IMG/VR virus record: IMGVR_UViG_3300020419_001305
Coordinates: 1 to 64,000 of that record
Origin: a virus
DNA length: 64,000 nucleotides
Strand: one strand, 5' to 3'
Of the stretch, positions 5,025 through 21,968 are shown piece after piece. Positions within the stretch are counted from its first letter, which is position 1, and each line of letters begins with the position of its first letter. The translations under genes and the position numbers were made by a program. Under the pieces are notes generated by a model that was given only the letters and a program-made list of their open reading frames with translations, ran no database searches and had not been told where the DNA came from.

Positions 5025-5393
5025 ATGGCGGAAGCCATGTTATTATTCATGCTAGTTGTAAAACATGCTCTAGCTGATCTGGTGCTACAAAGTAGACTTA
5101 TTTCTGGAGACAAAAGTAATCTAAAAAGTTCAAAGGGATACATACACGCAGGAGACCACGCGGTTTGTACCTTTATAGTCTTGCTGTTTTTTACATCCTT
5201 CCAAAATTCTGTTCTGATAGCAATGCTAGACTATGTTCTACATTTCATCATTGATTTTACAAAAACAAAACTTATGCGATATTATGATATCGAAACAAAC
5301 TCCAAAAAGTTTTGGATATTCCAAGGCGTTGATCAAATCGCCCATTATACTTGTTACTTTATTTACGTTCTTCTCTTGACAAACCTATTATAG
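5025..5393 (+). CDS. DUF3307-like membrane protein
   Basis: 122-residue integral membrane protein with three or four hydrophobic segments. The pattern of His and Asp residues around them (KHALADLVLQS, HAGDHAVCTF, LHFIIDFTK, GVDQIAHYTCYF) is that of the DUF3307 family, whose function is unknown. An AGGAGATCTATATG start places the RBS well. The end of the gene carries the promoter of the tmRNA. Confidence 0.8.
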   Translation: MAEAMLLFMLVVKHALADLVLQSRLISGDKSNLKSSKGYIHAGDHAVCTFIVLLFFTSFQNSVLIAMLDYVLHFIIDFTKTKLMRYYDIETNSKKFWIFQGVDQIAHYTCYFIYVLLLTNLL

Positions 5394-5404
5394 TATGCTA
5401 TAAA
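5376..5404 (+). promoter_or_regulatory. sigma70-type promoter of the tmRNA
   Basis: TTGACA (5376-5381) and TATAAA (5399-5404) with a 17-bp spacer overlap the end of the preceding gene. The -10 is also part of a full T4-late-like TATAAATA (5399-5406), so both transcription programmes could use it. The predicted start near 5411 coincides with the start of the tmRNA acceptor piece. Confidence 0.8.
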
Positions 5405-5409
5405 TACAC

Positions 5410-5730
5410 TACAACGTTGAAGCAATTCAAACGCTGAACAGGACCTGGGGGCAGTACCCAGCAGGTCCACCATAAACACATTTTTATAACGGGAGTGTGC
5501 TTATGATGGGCCTGAAATAGGATCGACTGGCAGTCAATAGAGTTCGTGGAGTTGTCCGGATCTAAGCTCGGTTAACGCGAAGACACGTTATAGATGCAAA
5601 CGATAATGTATCAAACGTATTTTCTTTCGTAGATTTTTCTAATGCGAGAAAGTACGTGAATGAGGATTTTGCCTTAGCGGCATAATCACTCGGGGTTGGC
5701 AACTTACCTAGCAACAGAAAAGTTGTGTCT
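5410..5730 (+). ncRNA. ssrA: circularly permuted (two-piece) tmRNA
   Basis: Ribosome-rescue RNA. The 3' tRNA-like half comes first: T-arm CTGGGGGCAGTACCCAG, acceptor strand CAGGTCC (5462-5468), discriminator A and encoded CCA (5470-5472). After an intervening segment comes the 5' half beginning GGGCCTG (5508-5514), which pairs with CAGGTCC over seven base pairs and includes the G3:U70 alanine identity pair. The tag frame starts at GCA 5596 and stops at TAA 5683-5685. It encodes 29 residues starting ANDNVSN and ending NEDFALAA, the latter a ClpX/ClpA-type degron. Permuted tmRNAs are known from alphaproteobacteria and some cyanobacteria and betaproteobacteria. The outer ends and excised segment are approximate. 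Confidence 0.93.
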
Positions 5731-5744
5731 TTATGGGAGCTGGT

Positions 5745-6575
5745 ATGAACATTGGCGTAAGAGGAAGTAAACTAGCAATTGATTATGCTAAAAAAGTCGA
5801 AGCACATTGTTTCAAAAGTTTCCAAACCAATCTTGTAAAAATTAAAACAGACGGCGACATATTTGAAAACAAAAGTATCCAAGACATTGGAGGCAAGGGT
5901 GTATTTGTTTCTGCTATAGAACAACAACTATTAGATAAAAAAATAGATGTAGCAGTACATTCATTCAAAGATCTGCCAGCAGTAATGGATGATAGGCTAG
6001 AAATTTCTGCTGTGTTAAAAAGGAACGATCCTAGAGATTGTTATATAGGCACACTCTTTCCGCATGCGAAAGTAGGGACAGGTTCACCTAGACGAATAGC
6101 ACAACTTAAAGAAAACTTTAATGTAGAATTTGAGATATTACCTATACGGGGTAATATTGATACAAGGATTAAAAAACTAGAACAAGGCAAGTATGATGCT
6201 ATTATATTAGCCGTAGCAGGACTAGAGGCCCTAAATTTAGATCATAAGATAAAAAAGATATTTCCTTTCAGTAAAATGTTACCATGCGTAGGACAGGGTG
6301 TGATAGCAATACAAACTAGAAAAGGATCAAGCCATAGCGATGTTGCGAAACTAAATAATCATTGGAATACGTACTATTCTGTAATGGCTGAAAGAGCAAT
6401 GCTCCAAGAGATAGATGGAGACTGCCATACCGCGGTAGGTGCTATTTCTACTCTAGTTGGCGACTGTCTAAATTTAAAAGCGATAAATTATAATACAGGA
6501 AAACAGTTTGAATCAACAAGCAAACTTTTAGAGTATAAACTATTAGGTGAGGAAGTAGGTAAAAATATAAAGTGA
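5745..6575 (+). CDS. hemC: hydroxymethylbilane synthase (porphobilinogen deaminase)
   Basis: Condenses four porphobilinogens into hydroxymethylbilane in heme synthesis. Conserved blocks are present in order: NIGVRGSKLA, DIGGKGVF, AVHSFKDLPA, VGTGSPRR, PIRGNIDTR, LPCVGQG and IDGDCHTAVGA. Cys227 in the last block is the attachment site of the dipyrromethane cofactor. The frame is open from 5733, but ATG 5745 is better: it follows GGGAG and gives the usual N-terminus. At 276 residues it is shorter than the typical 300-320, mostly in the C-terminal domain. It lies just after the tmRNA and its stop overlaps the hemE start, so the two are coupled. This is a host-type metabolic gene carried by a phage. 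Confidence 0.95.
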   Translation: MNIGVRGSKLAIDYAKKVEAHCFKSFQTNLVKIKTDGDIFENKSIQDIGGKGVFVSAIEQQLLDKKIDVAVHSFKDLPAVMDDRLEISAVLKRNDPRDCYIGTLFPHAKVGTGSPRRIAQLKENFNVEFEILPIRGNIDTRIKKLEQGKYDAIILAVAGLEALNLDHKIKKIFPFSKMLPCVGQGVIAIQTRKGSSHSDVAKLNNHWNTYYSVMAERAMLQEIDGDCHTAVGAISTLVGDCLNLKAINYNTGKQFESTSKLLEYKLLGEEVGKNIK

Positions 6576-7552
6576 ATAAAAAATTTATTAATGCTTGTAA
6601 CCGGAAAAAGCAGAAGGTCCCTCCTATATGGTTTATGAGACAAGCAGGTAGATACCACTCACACTATAGAGATCTTAAAACCCGTAGCACATTTGAATTG
6701 TTATGTAAGACTCCTGAACTTGCTGGAGAAGTAGCATTAGGACCTATTCTTGAATTTGATTATGATGTTGCTATTTTGTTCTCTGATATCTTGTTTCCTC
6801 TTGAAGGATTAGGCTTACCGTTAAGATTTGATCCAGGACCAAAGTTTCAATTTAATTTAAGCAAGGACAATCTTAAGGACTTACAAGACATAGAAAAAGC
6901 ATATCATTTTATGTCCTTTCAAAAAGATGCTTTACTTACAACTAGAGCTATGTTACCCAAAGATAAAAGTTTAATAGGTTTTGTAGGCGGACCTTGGACA
7001 TTAATGAATTATGCTTGTGGTAATTCCCGTGTATCTGATAAATTTAAATTAGACTACATGACAAATACGTTAATACCTTTACTCAAAATGAATATAGAAT
7101 TACAAATTAATGCTGGTGCTGAAAAAGTTATGATATTTGATAGTGGCTTACAGAACATGTCAACTAAATTTTTTAACCAAAAATATTCTCCTTTATTGAT
7201 GTCAATGGCCATGCCACAAACTGCTTACTATAGCAGACACCTGCCCAGAAAATGTATCAATAAAGTGTTAGAGGGAGACTGGGGTGGCATTGGCATAGAT
7301 AGTAAAGTTAATATAATAGACTGTTTAGAAATTGTTGATAACGGTTTTGTACAGGGTAACTTTGATGAACGTAAAATGTTATTACCAAAATATAAGTTTA
7401 TGTACGAGATAGAAAAGTATTGTGACGATATACGTAAATCAGAAGTAGATACTAGCGGATGGGTTTGTGGATTGGGACATGGAATAGATAAGGAAACTCC
7501 AGAAGAACATGTTCATTTGTTTATTGAAACTGTACGAAACAGATTTTCATAG
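6572..7552 (+). CDS. hemE: uroporphyrinogen decarboxylase
   Basis: Decarboxylates uroporphyrinogen III to coproporphyrinogen III, two steps after HemC. The substrate-binding N-terminal signature PPIWFMRQAGRYHSHYR is clear, followed by ILFSDILFPLEGLGLPLRF, GFVGGPWTLMNY and the C-terminal GLGHGIDKETPEEHV. At 326 residues it is slightly shorter than the usual 340-360. It overlaps the hemC stop by 4 nt. hemD, which would make uroporphyrinogen III, is not in the window and may be supplied by the host. Confidence 0.95.
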   Translation: MNKKFINACNRKKQKVPPIWFMRQAGRYHSHYRDLKTRSTFELLCKTPELAGEVALGPILEFDYDVAILFSDILFPLEGLGLPLRFDPGPKFQFNLSKDNLKDLQDIEKAYHFMSFQKDALLTTRAMLPKDKSLIGFVGGPWTLMNYACGNSRVSDKFKLDYMTNTLIPLLKMNIELQINAGAEKVMIFDSGLQNMSTKFFNQKYSPLLMSMAMPQTAYYSRHLPRKCINKVLEGDWGGIGIDSKVNIIDCLEIVDNGFVQGNFDERKMLLPKYKFMYEIEKYCDDIRKSEVDTSGWVCGLGHGIDKETPEEHVHLFIETVRNRFS

Positions 7553-19793: not shown

Positions 19794-19800
19794 TATTTAT
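19794..19800 (-). promoter_or_regulatory. late-promoter-like box ATAAATA (leftward)
   Basis: On the minus strand ATAAATA overlaps the stop of the large secreted protein gene and lies 24 nt before the coiled-coil gene start. Confidence 0.5.
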
Positions 19801-21968
19801 TGTAAACCAAGTCCATATCCTGGTTTGTATTGCTCATTAATCATATCGTTCATCAAGTTATCCTGTGCTGAACCAAATAGGGCACCGTATGGATCGCCCA
19901 TCATTACCTGATCTCTATAAACCTGTGTATCAGAGTACCAATCTATTGCGTCTTCATTCTGTTTTTGTACGTATTTCTTAAAATTTTCTGTATCTGCTAA
20001 TGATTGCATCAAAGCAATTTTGGTTGTTTCGTTTATAGCACTATAAGTATCAGCCATAGCACTTAGGATTCTATTAGCAATCTTCTGTTTAGCCTTAGCT
20101 ATTTCAGTCTTGATTTTTTCCTTAGTCTGTTTTGTTGTTCCCTTGGACTTAGATTTCTTATCTCCTTTGCTTCCTTTTCCATCTGTCTTTTGTCCGCCAG
20201 TGTCTTCTCTCCCGGCATCATCTCCATCTGCTTCACTAGCAGACTCTGACTCTGTGCTATCTCCGGCTTCTGACTCGCTTTCTGATTCACTGGTATCTCC
20301 TCTAGAATCAGAATCTCCGTCGGCTTCTGATGAACTGTCGCTGTTATTTTCTTCCACTGACTGTTCAGCATCACTACCGGACTCTTGTATATCTTCTGAA
20401 GCCGATTCATTGCTGTTCGTATCATTTGAACTTTCGGCTTCGGAAACTTCCGCTTCCACACTGGCATTTTCTGTTGCTCCCTCTTCTACAGTATTTACTT
20501 CTACTTCAACTGTAGCTTCTGTAGTAGCTTCAACATTTACATCCATCTCAACGTTTGTTGATCCTGCGTCAGCCATTTCTATATTAGTGTCTGGCATATC
20601 AATTTCTATTTCTATTTCTCCGACTGCGTCTGCTACTGCTGAATCTATCTGCGAACCAATGTCTGCTTCTATTTCTGCTACCGCAATTTCTGGTAGTTCT
20701 GTTGGGCCTACATCTAAATCAAAGTTTAGATCTATCTCAGCAATGGTTTCTACTTGTACTATACCTGTGTCTAAGTTTGTAGAATTCATTTCAACTGTGG
20801 CTACATTAGTTGTTTCGTCTACTTCTACACTAAACTCCATTTCTATTCCACCACCTGTGTCGTCATTTACTATAGCTATTTCAAATGAATCAACGTCTGT
20901 ATAATCTATATCAATTACTCCTGTGCTTCCGTCATCTATTGTAGGATCACCTATGAACACACTTGTCAATGTATCTTCGCTTGTATTATAAACTGTTTGT
21001 TGTGTGCTTAATATTATGTTTGTTATTGTTTCTGTGATAGTTGTTATAGCATCGTATGTAAGTGTCATAAAAGGATCGCTAAACACAGGACCATAATAAC
21101 CTGAGTGGTATCCCGCATCAACTCCCCACAGTTCCATTTGTCCCCATACCTCAGTGTAACTGTTTGAAGCAATGTCTTGCGTGAATGAATGTGTTTGTGT
21201 GCCGTTGTAAGTAAGTGTTACAAATTGACTATACTCTCCTATTAGGTTAGTAGCATTTGCTCCTGCCGCCTTGTAAAGTTTTGCTGTAATTCTAAATACG
21301 TCTTTACAGTCGCCGCCGGTTGCTGAACACAAAGGCACAGTAGTATTTGATTTGTGTGATTGTACATCAACACCATAGTTTAATTGGAAGCCTGATTGTA
21401 TTTCTGCAACAGTTAAGTCTAACCCCATTTCAAATTGTTCTGACTGTATTTCGCCGCCACCTAATGCAAGGAAGTTTGAATTTTGTTCCGTTACAAGATT
21501 GTTATTATTATTAGCTTGATAACCTGTACAGGCTTCACCTGCGCCAACAGTTGAACTTGATCCACCTGTTCTACATTGGGTTTGACCTTGTAACTTTACT
21601 CTACCAGTTGAAGACCAATCCGAATCATTTATTGTAGGCAAACTATTTGTAGTTGTTGTAGACGTTAGTACAGTTGTCTGTTGTGTTGTAGTGCTTGTTG
21701 TAGCAATTTGTTCAATAACTGTTTCTGTATATTGTGTCGTGGTTGTTGTATCTTCAAAGCCACCATTGAGAGCAACTTCTGTGTTTGTAATCACAGATGT
21801 AATTGTGCTAGATGTAACAGTACCGCCGTTAGGTCCGGTATCACCTACATTATATTGTTGTGTGTATGATAGTGCTGGACTAGAGTAAGAACAACAACAA
21901 AGCACCAATACCAATACTCCAAGTAGTTGCCTTATTTTGCCATTCTTTTTCGTATGCTTCAAGATCAT
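19797..21968 (-). CDS. large secreted Thr/Ser/Glu-rich protein
   Basis: 723 residues. Residues 1-36 are a signal peptide (VLVLVLCCCSYSSPALS). Residues about 50-110 are Thr-rich. A globular beta-rich part runs to about 420. Acidic repeats of Val/Glu/Ile follow (EIEIEIDMPDTNIEM), then a Ser/Glu/Asp low-complexity region (about 500-585), a Lys-rich coil (590-630) and a helical C-terminus. Probably a virion or envelope-exposed protein. The N-terminal codons overlap the end of the gene upstream by 89 nt. A long rightward open frame across the Ser/Glu region is a shadow. Confidence 0.82.
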   Translation of the reverse strand: MILKHTKKNGKIRQLLGVLVLVLCCCSYSSPALSYTQQYNVGDTGPNGGTVTSSTITSVITNTEVALNGGFEDTTTTTQYTETVIEQIATTSTTTQQTTVLTSTTTTNSLPTINDSDWSSTGRVKLQGQTQCRTGGSSSTVGAGEACTGYQANNNNNLVTEQNSNFLALGGGEIQSEQFEMGLDLTVAEIQSGFQLNYGVDVQSHKSNTTVPLCSATGGDCKDVFRITAKLYKAAGANATNLIGEYSQFVTLTYNGTQTHSFTQDIASNSYTEVWGQMELWGVDAGYHSGYYGPVFSDPFMTLTYDAITTITETITNIILSTQQTVYNTSEDTLTSVFIGDPTIDDGSTGVIDIDYTDVDSFEIAIVNDDTGGGIEMEFSVEVDETTNVATVEMNSTNLDTGIVQVETIAEIDLNFDLDVGPTELPEIAVAEIEADIGSQIDSAVADAVGEIEIEIDMPDTNIEMADAGSTNVEMDVNVEATTEATVEVEVNTVEEGATENASVEAEVSEAESSNDTNSNESASEDIQESGSDAEQSVEENNSDSSSEADGDSDSRGDTSESESESEAGDSTESESASEADGDDAGREDTGGQKTDGKGSKGDKKSKSKGTTKQTKEKIKTEIAKAKQKIANRILSAMADTYSAINETTKIALMQSLADTENFKKYVQKQNEDAIDWYSDTQVYRDQVMMGDPYGALFGSAQDNLMNDMINEQYKPGYGLGLQ

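Follow-up and report, generated by a model that had tools for sequence, protein, structure and literature searches.

A phage-borne, two-piece tmRNA gene with a conserved long tag, and small genes in the spacers of related tmRNAs

The tmRNA locus and its neighbourhood

The window analysed in this study, a 64,000-nt stretch of viral DNA, lies in a linear virus record of 78,284 bp (IMGVR_UViG_3300020419_001305) that is probably a fragment. Positions 5376-5730, on the plus strand like the other features of this locus, represent a circularly permuted (two-piece) tmRNA gene of the alphaproteobacterial type, as identified with Rfam and ARAGORN. The Rfam model alpha_tmRNA (RF01849) matched positions 5354-5730 with a score of 101 bits (cut-off 50), and tmRNA_permuted (RF04321) matched the locus with 89.4 bits (cut-off 47); the model ends were reached in both cases. 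Since these scores far exceed the cut-offs, a chance match is excluded. ARAGORN reported a permuted tmRNA at 5379-5776 and read from it a tag of 29 residues, ANDNVSNVFSFVDFSNARKYVNEDFALAA. The original prediction, made from the sequence alone, had proposed a permuted tmRNA of this type in a phage; it was borne out by both covariance models, a comparison that it had itself suggested, and by ARAGORN.

As is apparent from the ARAGORN, Rfam and folding results, the acceptor piece comes first (5411-5472). It consists of the P2-side strand, the T arm (5445-5461), the acceptor 3′-strand CAGGTCC (5462-5468) and an A followed by the encoded CCA (5469-5472, with the CCA at 5470-5472). The intervening segment of 35 nt (5473-5507) folds as a hairpin, with the stem UAAACACA/UGUGCUUA and one mismatch. 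The coding piece begins at G5508, and its 5′-part (5508-5595) starts with the acceptor 5′-strand GGGCCTG (5508-5514) and includes, according to the RF01849 and RF04321 alignments, a D-arm-like region and the strand that pairs with the acceptor piece. The tag frame, assigned by ARAGORN and by the tag family described below, occupies 5596-5685 (29 codons and a TAA stop at 5683-5685). It begins with the resume codon GCA, ends in GCA TAA and has the form ANDN...ALAA, with a ClpX-type tail. The 3′-part of the coding piece (5686-5730) contains the hairpin GCAACTTACCTAGCAACAGAAAAGTTG, aligns with RF01849 to the model end and is kept in relatives.

The acceptor stem, formed between the two halves, comprises seven pairs including G3:U70. 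A pseudoknot-free RNA fold of 5440-5530 yielded the T stem and one long helix, composed of the acceptor stem and the spacer hairpin, at -34.8 kcal/mol (z -3.4; 0/200 shuffles equally good). Related loci were gathered with a T-arm pattern and a tag-end pattern; the totals obtained in this way are lower bounds, several loci share one contig, and some of the contigs counted may come from near-identical viruses. Of the 16 distinct acceptor pairs found in relatives, 14 form all seven base pairs and 15 have G:U at pair 3. Mean pairing in this set was 6.62, as compared with 5.33 (maximum 6.06) after partners were swapped, and the stem is thus conserved with covariation. The arrangement originally described, i.e. 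a CCA-bearing acceptor half ahead of the coding half and a seven-pair stem with G3:U70, is therefore seen in both sequence and fold, and the tag that had been singled out as unusually long, at 29 residues, is the one read by ARAGORN at 5596-5682.

A σ70-type promoter (5376-5404) consists of TTGACA (5376-5381) and TATAAA (5399-5404), separated by 17 nt. A consensus promoter had also been predicted, and the pattern is kept in relatives: TTGACN-N15-19-TATAAN precedes the tmRNA in 51/51 distinct upstream sequences from the relatives listed, with a spacing of 17 in 49 cases and 18 in 2, against a background of 68/16,588 70-mers. The promoter is overlapped by the 3′-end of a gene for a DUF3307 membrane protein (5025-5393; Pfam PF11750, phrog_2470). 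Downstream lies hemC (porphobilinogen deaminase/hydroxymethylbilane synthase; 5745-6575; PF01379, 211 bits), which overlaps hemE (uroporphyrinogen decarboxylase; 6572-7552; PF01208, 192 bits). The most likely start of hemC is 5745 rather than 5733, with the Shine-Dalgarno sequence GGGAG at 5735-5739, and in an alignment of the window HemC with E. coli HemC structures the cofactor Cys is in place. No terminator-like site was found between the tmRNA and hemC. Because hemC starts only 15 nt past the tmRNA end, the tmRNA, hemC and hemE are probably carried on one transcript.

The tmRNA is preceded by nrdA, nrdB, a glutaredoxin gene, a small gene, cspA and the DUF3307 gene, and it is followed by hemC, hemE and then a nuclease gene. 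The order nrdA-nrdB-glutaredoxin-cspA-DUF3307-tmRNA was observed, as far as the contigs reach, in all 51 loci listed with an F-x-FV[DN]F tag, and hemC-hemE lies downstream in only some of them. Heme genes were reported in some pelagimyophages, but not a hemC-hemE pair with a tmRNA (PMC7029224). Elsewhere in the window, a 723-codon frame (19797-21968) lies on the minus strand amid a plus-strand region; it had no PHROG match.

A conserved family of long tags

When the uncoded Ala of Ala-tmRNA is counted, the mature tag of the window tmRNA would have 30 residues, 29 of them coded. Among known tags, a length of 10 residues is the commonest (PMC11915505). ARAGORN read 86 distinct tags at the loci listed, of which 48 are 13-14 and 16 are 29-31 residues long; this set had been enriched by the tag-end search. 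A frame search recovered at least 25 variants of 29-31 residues on at least 43 distinct DNA sequences. All of the long variants listed share an F-V-[DN]-F-[SG] core and a (N/S/T)ED(F/Y)A(L/I)AA end, a pattern that the window tag fits. Long tags with the FV[DN]F core were seen on viral contigs only, the tmRNAs read being viral.

In 17 aligned variants the F, V and F of the core and the E and D of the end are invariant, and the F/V/F codons vary synonymously. The last eight residues gave a pN of 0.03 and a pS of 0.33. For the core columns the values were 0.19 and 0.30, a moderate constraint at the protein level, so the core may be conserved in part for the sake of RNA structure or through shared ancestry. 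Between core and end, the residues vary freely (pN 0.33); pN/pS for the whole tag was 0.50. Lengths of the aligned variants differ by whole codons only.

A 14-residue tag, ANDNFASEDFALAA, is found on RNA bodies very similar to the long-tag ones, and the long tag is therefore an in-frame insertion relative to the short form, with 15-17 residues that include the conserved FVDF core placed between the ANDN start and the LAA end. As judged from these sequence comparisons, the long tag is a conserved phage family, about twice the usual length, rather than a one-off. Other, unrelated long tags also occur in viral permuted tmRNAs: L097 and L100 carry AKKSTTFASILPVKVERVSLVQEALAASA, and L029, L049 and L090 have tags of 22 residues.

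Proposed function of the tmRNA and its tag

The locus very probably represents a functional two-piece tmRNA gene of the alpha type, carried by a phage; this judgement covers jointly the proposed processing, charging and tagging and the proposed influence of the long tag. Transcription by host RNA polymerase would start at the conserved promoter and probably run on through hemC and hemE. RNase P would cleave before G5508 and 3′-processing would trim to the CCA at 5472, with removal of the 35-nt hairpin; the two RNA pieces would remain paired and be charged with alanine via G3:U70. With host SmpB (an SmpB gene was not found in the 78,284-bp virus record, which may be a fragment), the tmRNA would free stalled ribosomes and append the 30-residue tag. 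The ANDN start of that tag would be the site expected for host adaptors, and its LAA end would be of the ClpX type.

In E. coli, a four-residue insert between the SspB- and ClpX-binding parts of the tag, combined with a weakened end, leads to SspB-dependent degradation (PMC9382460). The 15-17-residue insert in the phage tag is situated at the place equivalent to this SspB/ClpX junction, and the strong end is kept. For these reasons, the preferred reading, by analogy, is that the insertion most likely alters the hand-over of tagged proteins to the host protease.

The insertion might instead be neutral padding, fixed in one phage lineage, with function depending on the two ends of the tag alone. 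Such padding would accord with the free variation between core and end and with the occurrence of 13-14- and 29-31-residue tags on similar RNA bodies, but F-V-[DN]-F is retained in 17/17 aligned variants despite synonymous codon changes, and every change in length is a multiple of three; this account is possible but doubtful. Another reading is suggested by the Mollicutes, in which the ssrA tags exceed the E. coli tag in length and Lon is the main reader (PMC9382460). Lon favours hydrophobic motifs (PMC11986505), and the core of the long tag is both hydrophobic and conserved, so the aromatic core NVFSFVDFS could serve as an extra degron (e.g. for Lon) and the long tag as a protease switch. That the phage tags keep a strongly constrained, ClpX-type ALAA end, unlike the Mollicute end NYAFA, makes such a switch unlikely. 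Altered delivery to the protease is thus retained as the preferred reading. Phage tmRNAs are known, yet little understood; with the long-tag family, it can be asked directly whether phages change what becomes of rescued proteins.

Small genes within the tmRNA spacer

The 9-bp stem at the base of the spacer was compared across 99 distinct segments ending in WTGAN. On average, 8.67 of the nine positions pair, as compared with 7.15 (maximum 7.40 in 500 trials) after the 5′- and 3′-ends were swapped between segments, and at several positions A-T/T-A as well as G-C/C-G pairs occur. This covariation argues for a conserved maturation hairpin.

The window spacer, at 35 nt and without a reading frame, represents an empty allele. 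A complete small gene was observed in the tmRNA spacer of the close relatives L004, L005, L300, L257 and L228, as well as in dozens of other phage tmRNAs (gene-bearing loci include L004:5471-6037, L005:4315-4881 and L300:3980-4517, and also L330-L366). In L004 and L005, the hemC genes of which are 88-90% identical to that of the window, the spacer is 203 nt long and holds a complete 62-codon gene, ORF A; L300 and L257 carry a diverged ORF A. Other spacers contain ORF B (55 residues, basic and Cys-containing; L228, L241, L260 and L299), ORF C (63 residues, DUF6356; L012 and L081), ORF D (114 residues; L292) or ORF E (39-41 residues; L341, L349, L358 and others). The ORF A-E families are mutually unrelated, and none is a homing nuclease. 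Nine filled loci were scanned with Rfam, and all scored above a permuted-tmRNA cut-off.

In the commonest design, the 5′-strand of the hairpin includes a Shine-Dalgarno sequence (AAGGA), and the gene ends in the 3′-strand, where its final codons are followed by a UGA stop one base ahead of the predicted RNase P site. The junction TCCACCATAAGGACAYTGA was found on 37 contigs, and in 37/37 there is a gene whose stop falls in the 3′-strand of the stem. An assembly artefact was rejected as the source of the spacer genes, since these contigs come from many metagenomes and share the junction, each with a gene ending on the stem. Gene-filled spacers number 39 among at least 141 distinct ones, spacer frames that did not beat shuffles being left out of the counts; the filled ones are all at least 122 nt long, and every spacer of at least 200 nt is filled. 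The least biased frequency, 4/100, is that in the sample gathered with the T-arm pattern only. A gene is present in 32/33 spacers with a TAAGGA stem start and in 7/108 otherwise, an association that is partly built in by the search design.

A search with ORF A yielded 90 viral relatives, of which 80 were kept; 23 of the 80 lie inside a tmRNA spacer. Other copies precede a tmRNA by 9-10 or about 430 nt. The gene of phage Melnitz, the sole match among phage records, likewise lies ahead of the tmRNA; nested ORF B and ORF C had no match in those records, and ORF A was not found in the window's virus record. Twenty residues are invariant in 46 ORF A sequences, and a beta-beta-alpha-beta structure is predicted with confidence (pLDDT 91.5). 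No Pfam family and no clear PHROG family was found for ORF A, and its model gave no significant fold match in the PDB or BFVD. A chance frame was rejected on the basis of a pN/pS of 0.26 among 16 nested copies, the distribution of variable sites over codon positions (25/13/43) and the free-standing homologues. By these measures of sequence conservation, ORF A is a real protein family.

In L157, L159, L161, L176, L178, L179 and L185, ORF A lies between tRNA-Thr and tRNA-Leu genes, at a distance of 14-21 nt from the preceding tRNA and 3-19 nt from the following one, and so again between RNA processing sites. At L148:2889-3351, the same ORF A occupies the same place in a permuted tmRNA that scored far higher with RF04321 (99 bits) than with alpha_tmRNA (58 bits).

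A tree was built by a quick method from a short alignment of 44 tmRNA bodies, from which spacer and tag had been left out, and slot content was mapped onto it. Eight changes were needed, and the well-supported branches alone require the empty state to have changed at least six times. L003 and L311, whose slots are also empty (35 nt), fall into one group with the window, as do L300 and L257. Within its lineage the slot is empty (window, L003 and L311) or holds ORF A (L004 and L005), diverged ORF A (L300 and L257) or ORF B (L228, L241, L260 and L299). In L300 (3960-4560) the acceptor half resembles that of L004 and L005 and the coding half that of L003 and the window, an apparent recombination within the slot.

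Taken together, these data make it fairly probable that small genes are swapped in and out of the spacer of phage permuted tmRNAs, which would thus act as a slot; the window carries the empty allele and so displays the hairpin in its gene-free form. In the filled-slot design, one transcript could serve as both mRNA and tmRNA precursor. A ribosome ending at the 3′-strand stop would cover the acceptor stem, and translation could thus be coupled to tmRNA maturation, a link for which the slot would offer a simple test. If correct, this would represent a new form of gene packing, with coding sequence within the discarded loop of an RNA precursor and a ribosome-binding site and final codons that double as a processing stem. 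No papers on genes in tmRNA spacers were found in the open literature, the coverage of which was incomplete.

Origin and host

In four other viral contigs with a close hemC, the same tmRNA precedes hemC in all four. Among cultured phages, Pelagibacter phage Mosig has the most similar NrdA (70%), with T4-like cyanophages next, and other proteins of the window phage match cyanophages weakly. The type of the tmRNA had been taken to point to an alphaproteobacterial host. It does not prove one, because phage Melnitz, which has a two-piece tmRNA of the alpha type, infects OM43 (Methylophilales; PMC9004378). An alignment with the SAR11 tag had also been proposed; it covered a single SAR11 phage, Mosig, which has a short tag.

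Acquisition of the tmRNA from the present host had likewise been suggested, and the data do not favour it. Were the gene recently taken from an alphaproteobacterial host, with the tag being that of the host, the best fit of the alpha-type model would be explained, and marine phage two-piece tmRNAs do generally group with host lineages (PMC9004378). Against this stand the case of Melnitz, in which type and host disagree, and the restriction of such long tags to viral contigs among the (viral) tmRNAs read. Weak further evidence comes from pattern scans: a degenerate 43-nt pattern that covers the T-arm region of the acceptor piece and the sequence ahead of it was found in 0/84,980 bacterial and archaeal species genomes, and a T-arm/acceptor pattern gave no match in a scan for bacterial donors, both searches being run without a positive control. 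A recent acquisition is therefore improbable. The long-tag family recurs across many viral contigs in a gene order that is conserved, which fits a long circulation among phages, although the gene may have come from bacteria in the distant past.

For mycobacteriophage DS6A, whose tmRNA is tag-less, interference with the host system has been proposed, and a tag-less phage tmRNA does inhibit the endogenous one upon expression in E. coli (PMC11915505). That the window tmRNA is likewise an interfering decoy or dead form is highly improbable, since the tag frame, stop, acceptor, G3:U70 and CCA are kept across the long-tag family.

Comparison with known systems

Two-piece tmRNAs have been published from phages, with 53 counted among phage genomes, 50 of them marine or aquatic, and that of Melnitz reported (PMC9004378); the Mosig record has an annotated ssrA. 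The window tmRNA thus belongs to a kind already known, the phage-borne, alpha-type, two-piece tmRNA of marine phages including Mosig and Melnitz. What goes beyond the known systems is the long-tag family and the gene-bearing spacers in close relatives.

The window gene shares with the Caulobacter-type tmRNA (RF01849) the gene order, T arm, acceptor stem with G3:U70, encoded CCA, conserved 3′-part and ALAA end. It differs in its tag of 29 residues (usually 13-14), in its short hairpin spacer and in being phage-borne. Like the tmRNAs of Melnitz (MZ577097) and Mosig (MT647606), marine phages annotated as Kyanoviridae, it is phage-borne, of the alpha type and has a TAAACAC-type spacer stem; unlike the window tmRNA, those of Melnitz (ANDNYVPVDYALAA) and Mosig have short tags and another gene neighbourhood. 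In Mosig (L143:1468-1806), ARAGORN reads a tag of 9 residues, GEDNFALAA, and the frame extends upstream to give AFLNGEDNFALAA, which looks like the true tag. A glutamine riboswitch aptamer (RF01739) directly follows the tmRNA in Melnitz and a relative (L126:2854-2902 and L221:3607-3655), in agreement with the published description; no such aptamer was found next to that of the window.

Mollicute tmRNAs are standard, not permuted, and their tags are without the ALAA end. The phage tag resembles theirs in being longer than that of E. coli (PMC9382460). It differs from them in that it retains ANDN and ALAA. Phage group I introns hold small genes (intron ORFs), and the gene-filled spacers of the relatives likewise place a protein gene within an RNA segment that is removed at maturation. 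Unlike intron ORFs, the spacer genes are not homing nucleases, and the segment that holds them is situated between permuted tmRNA halves and presumably cut by tRNA-processing enzymes.
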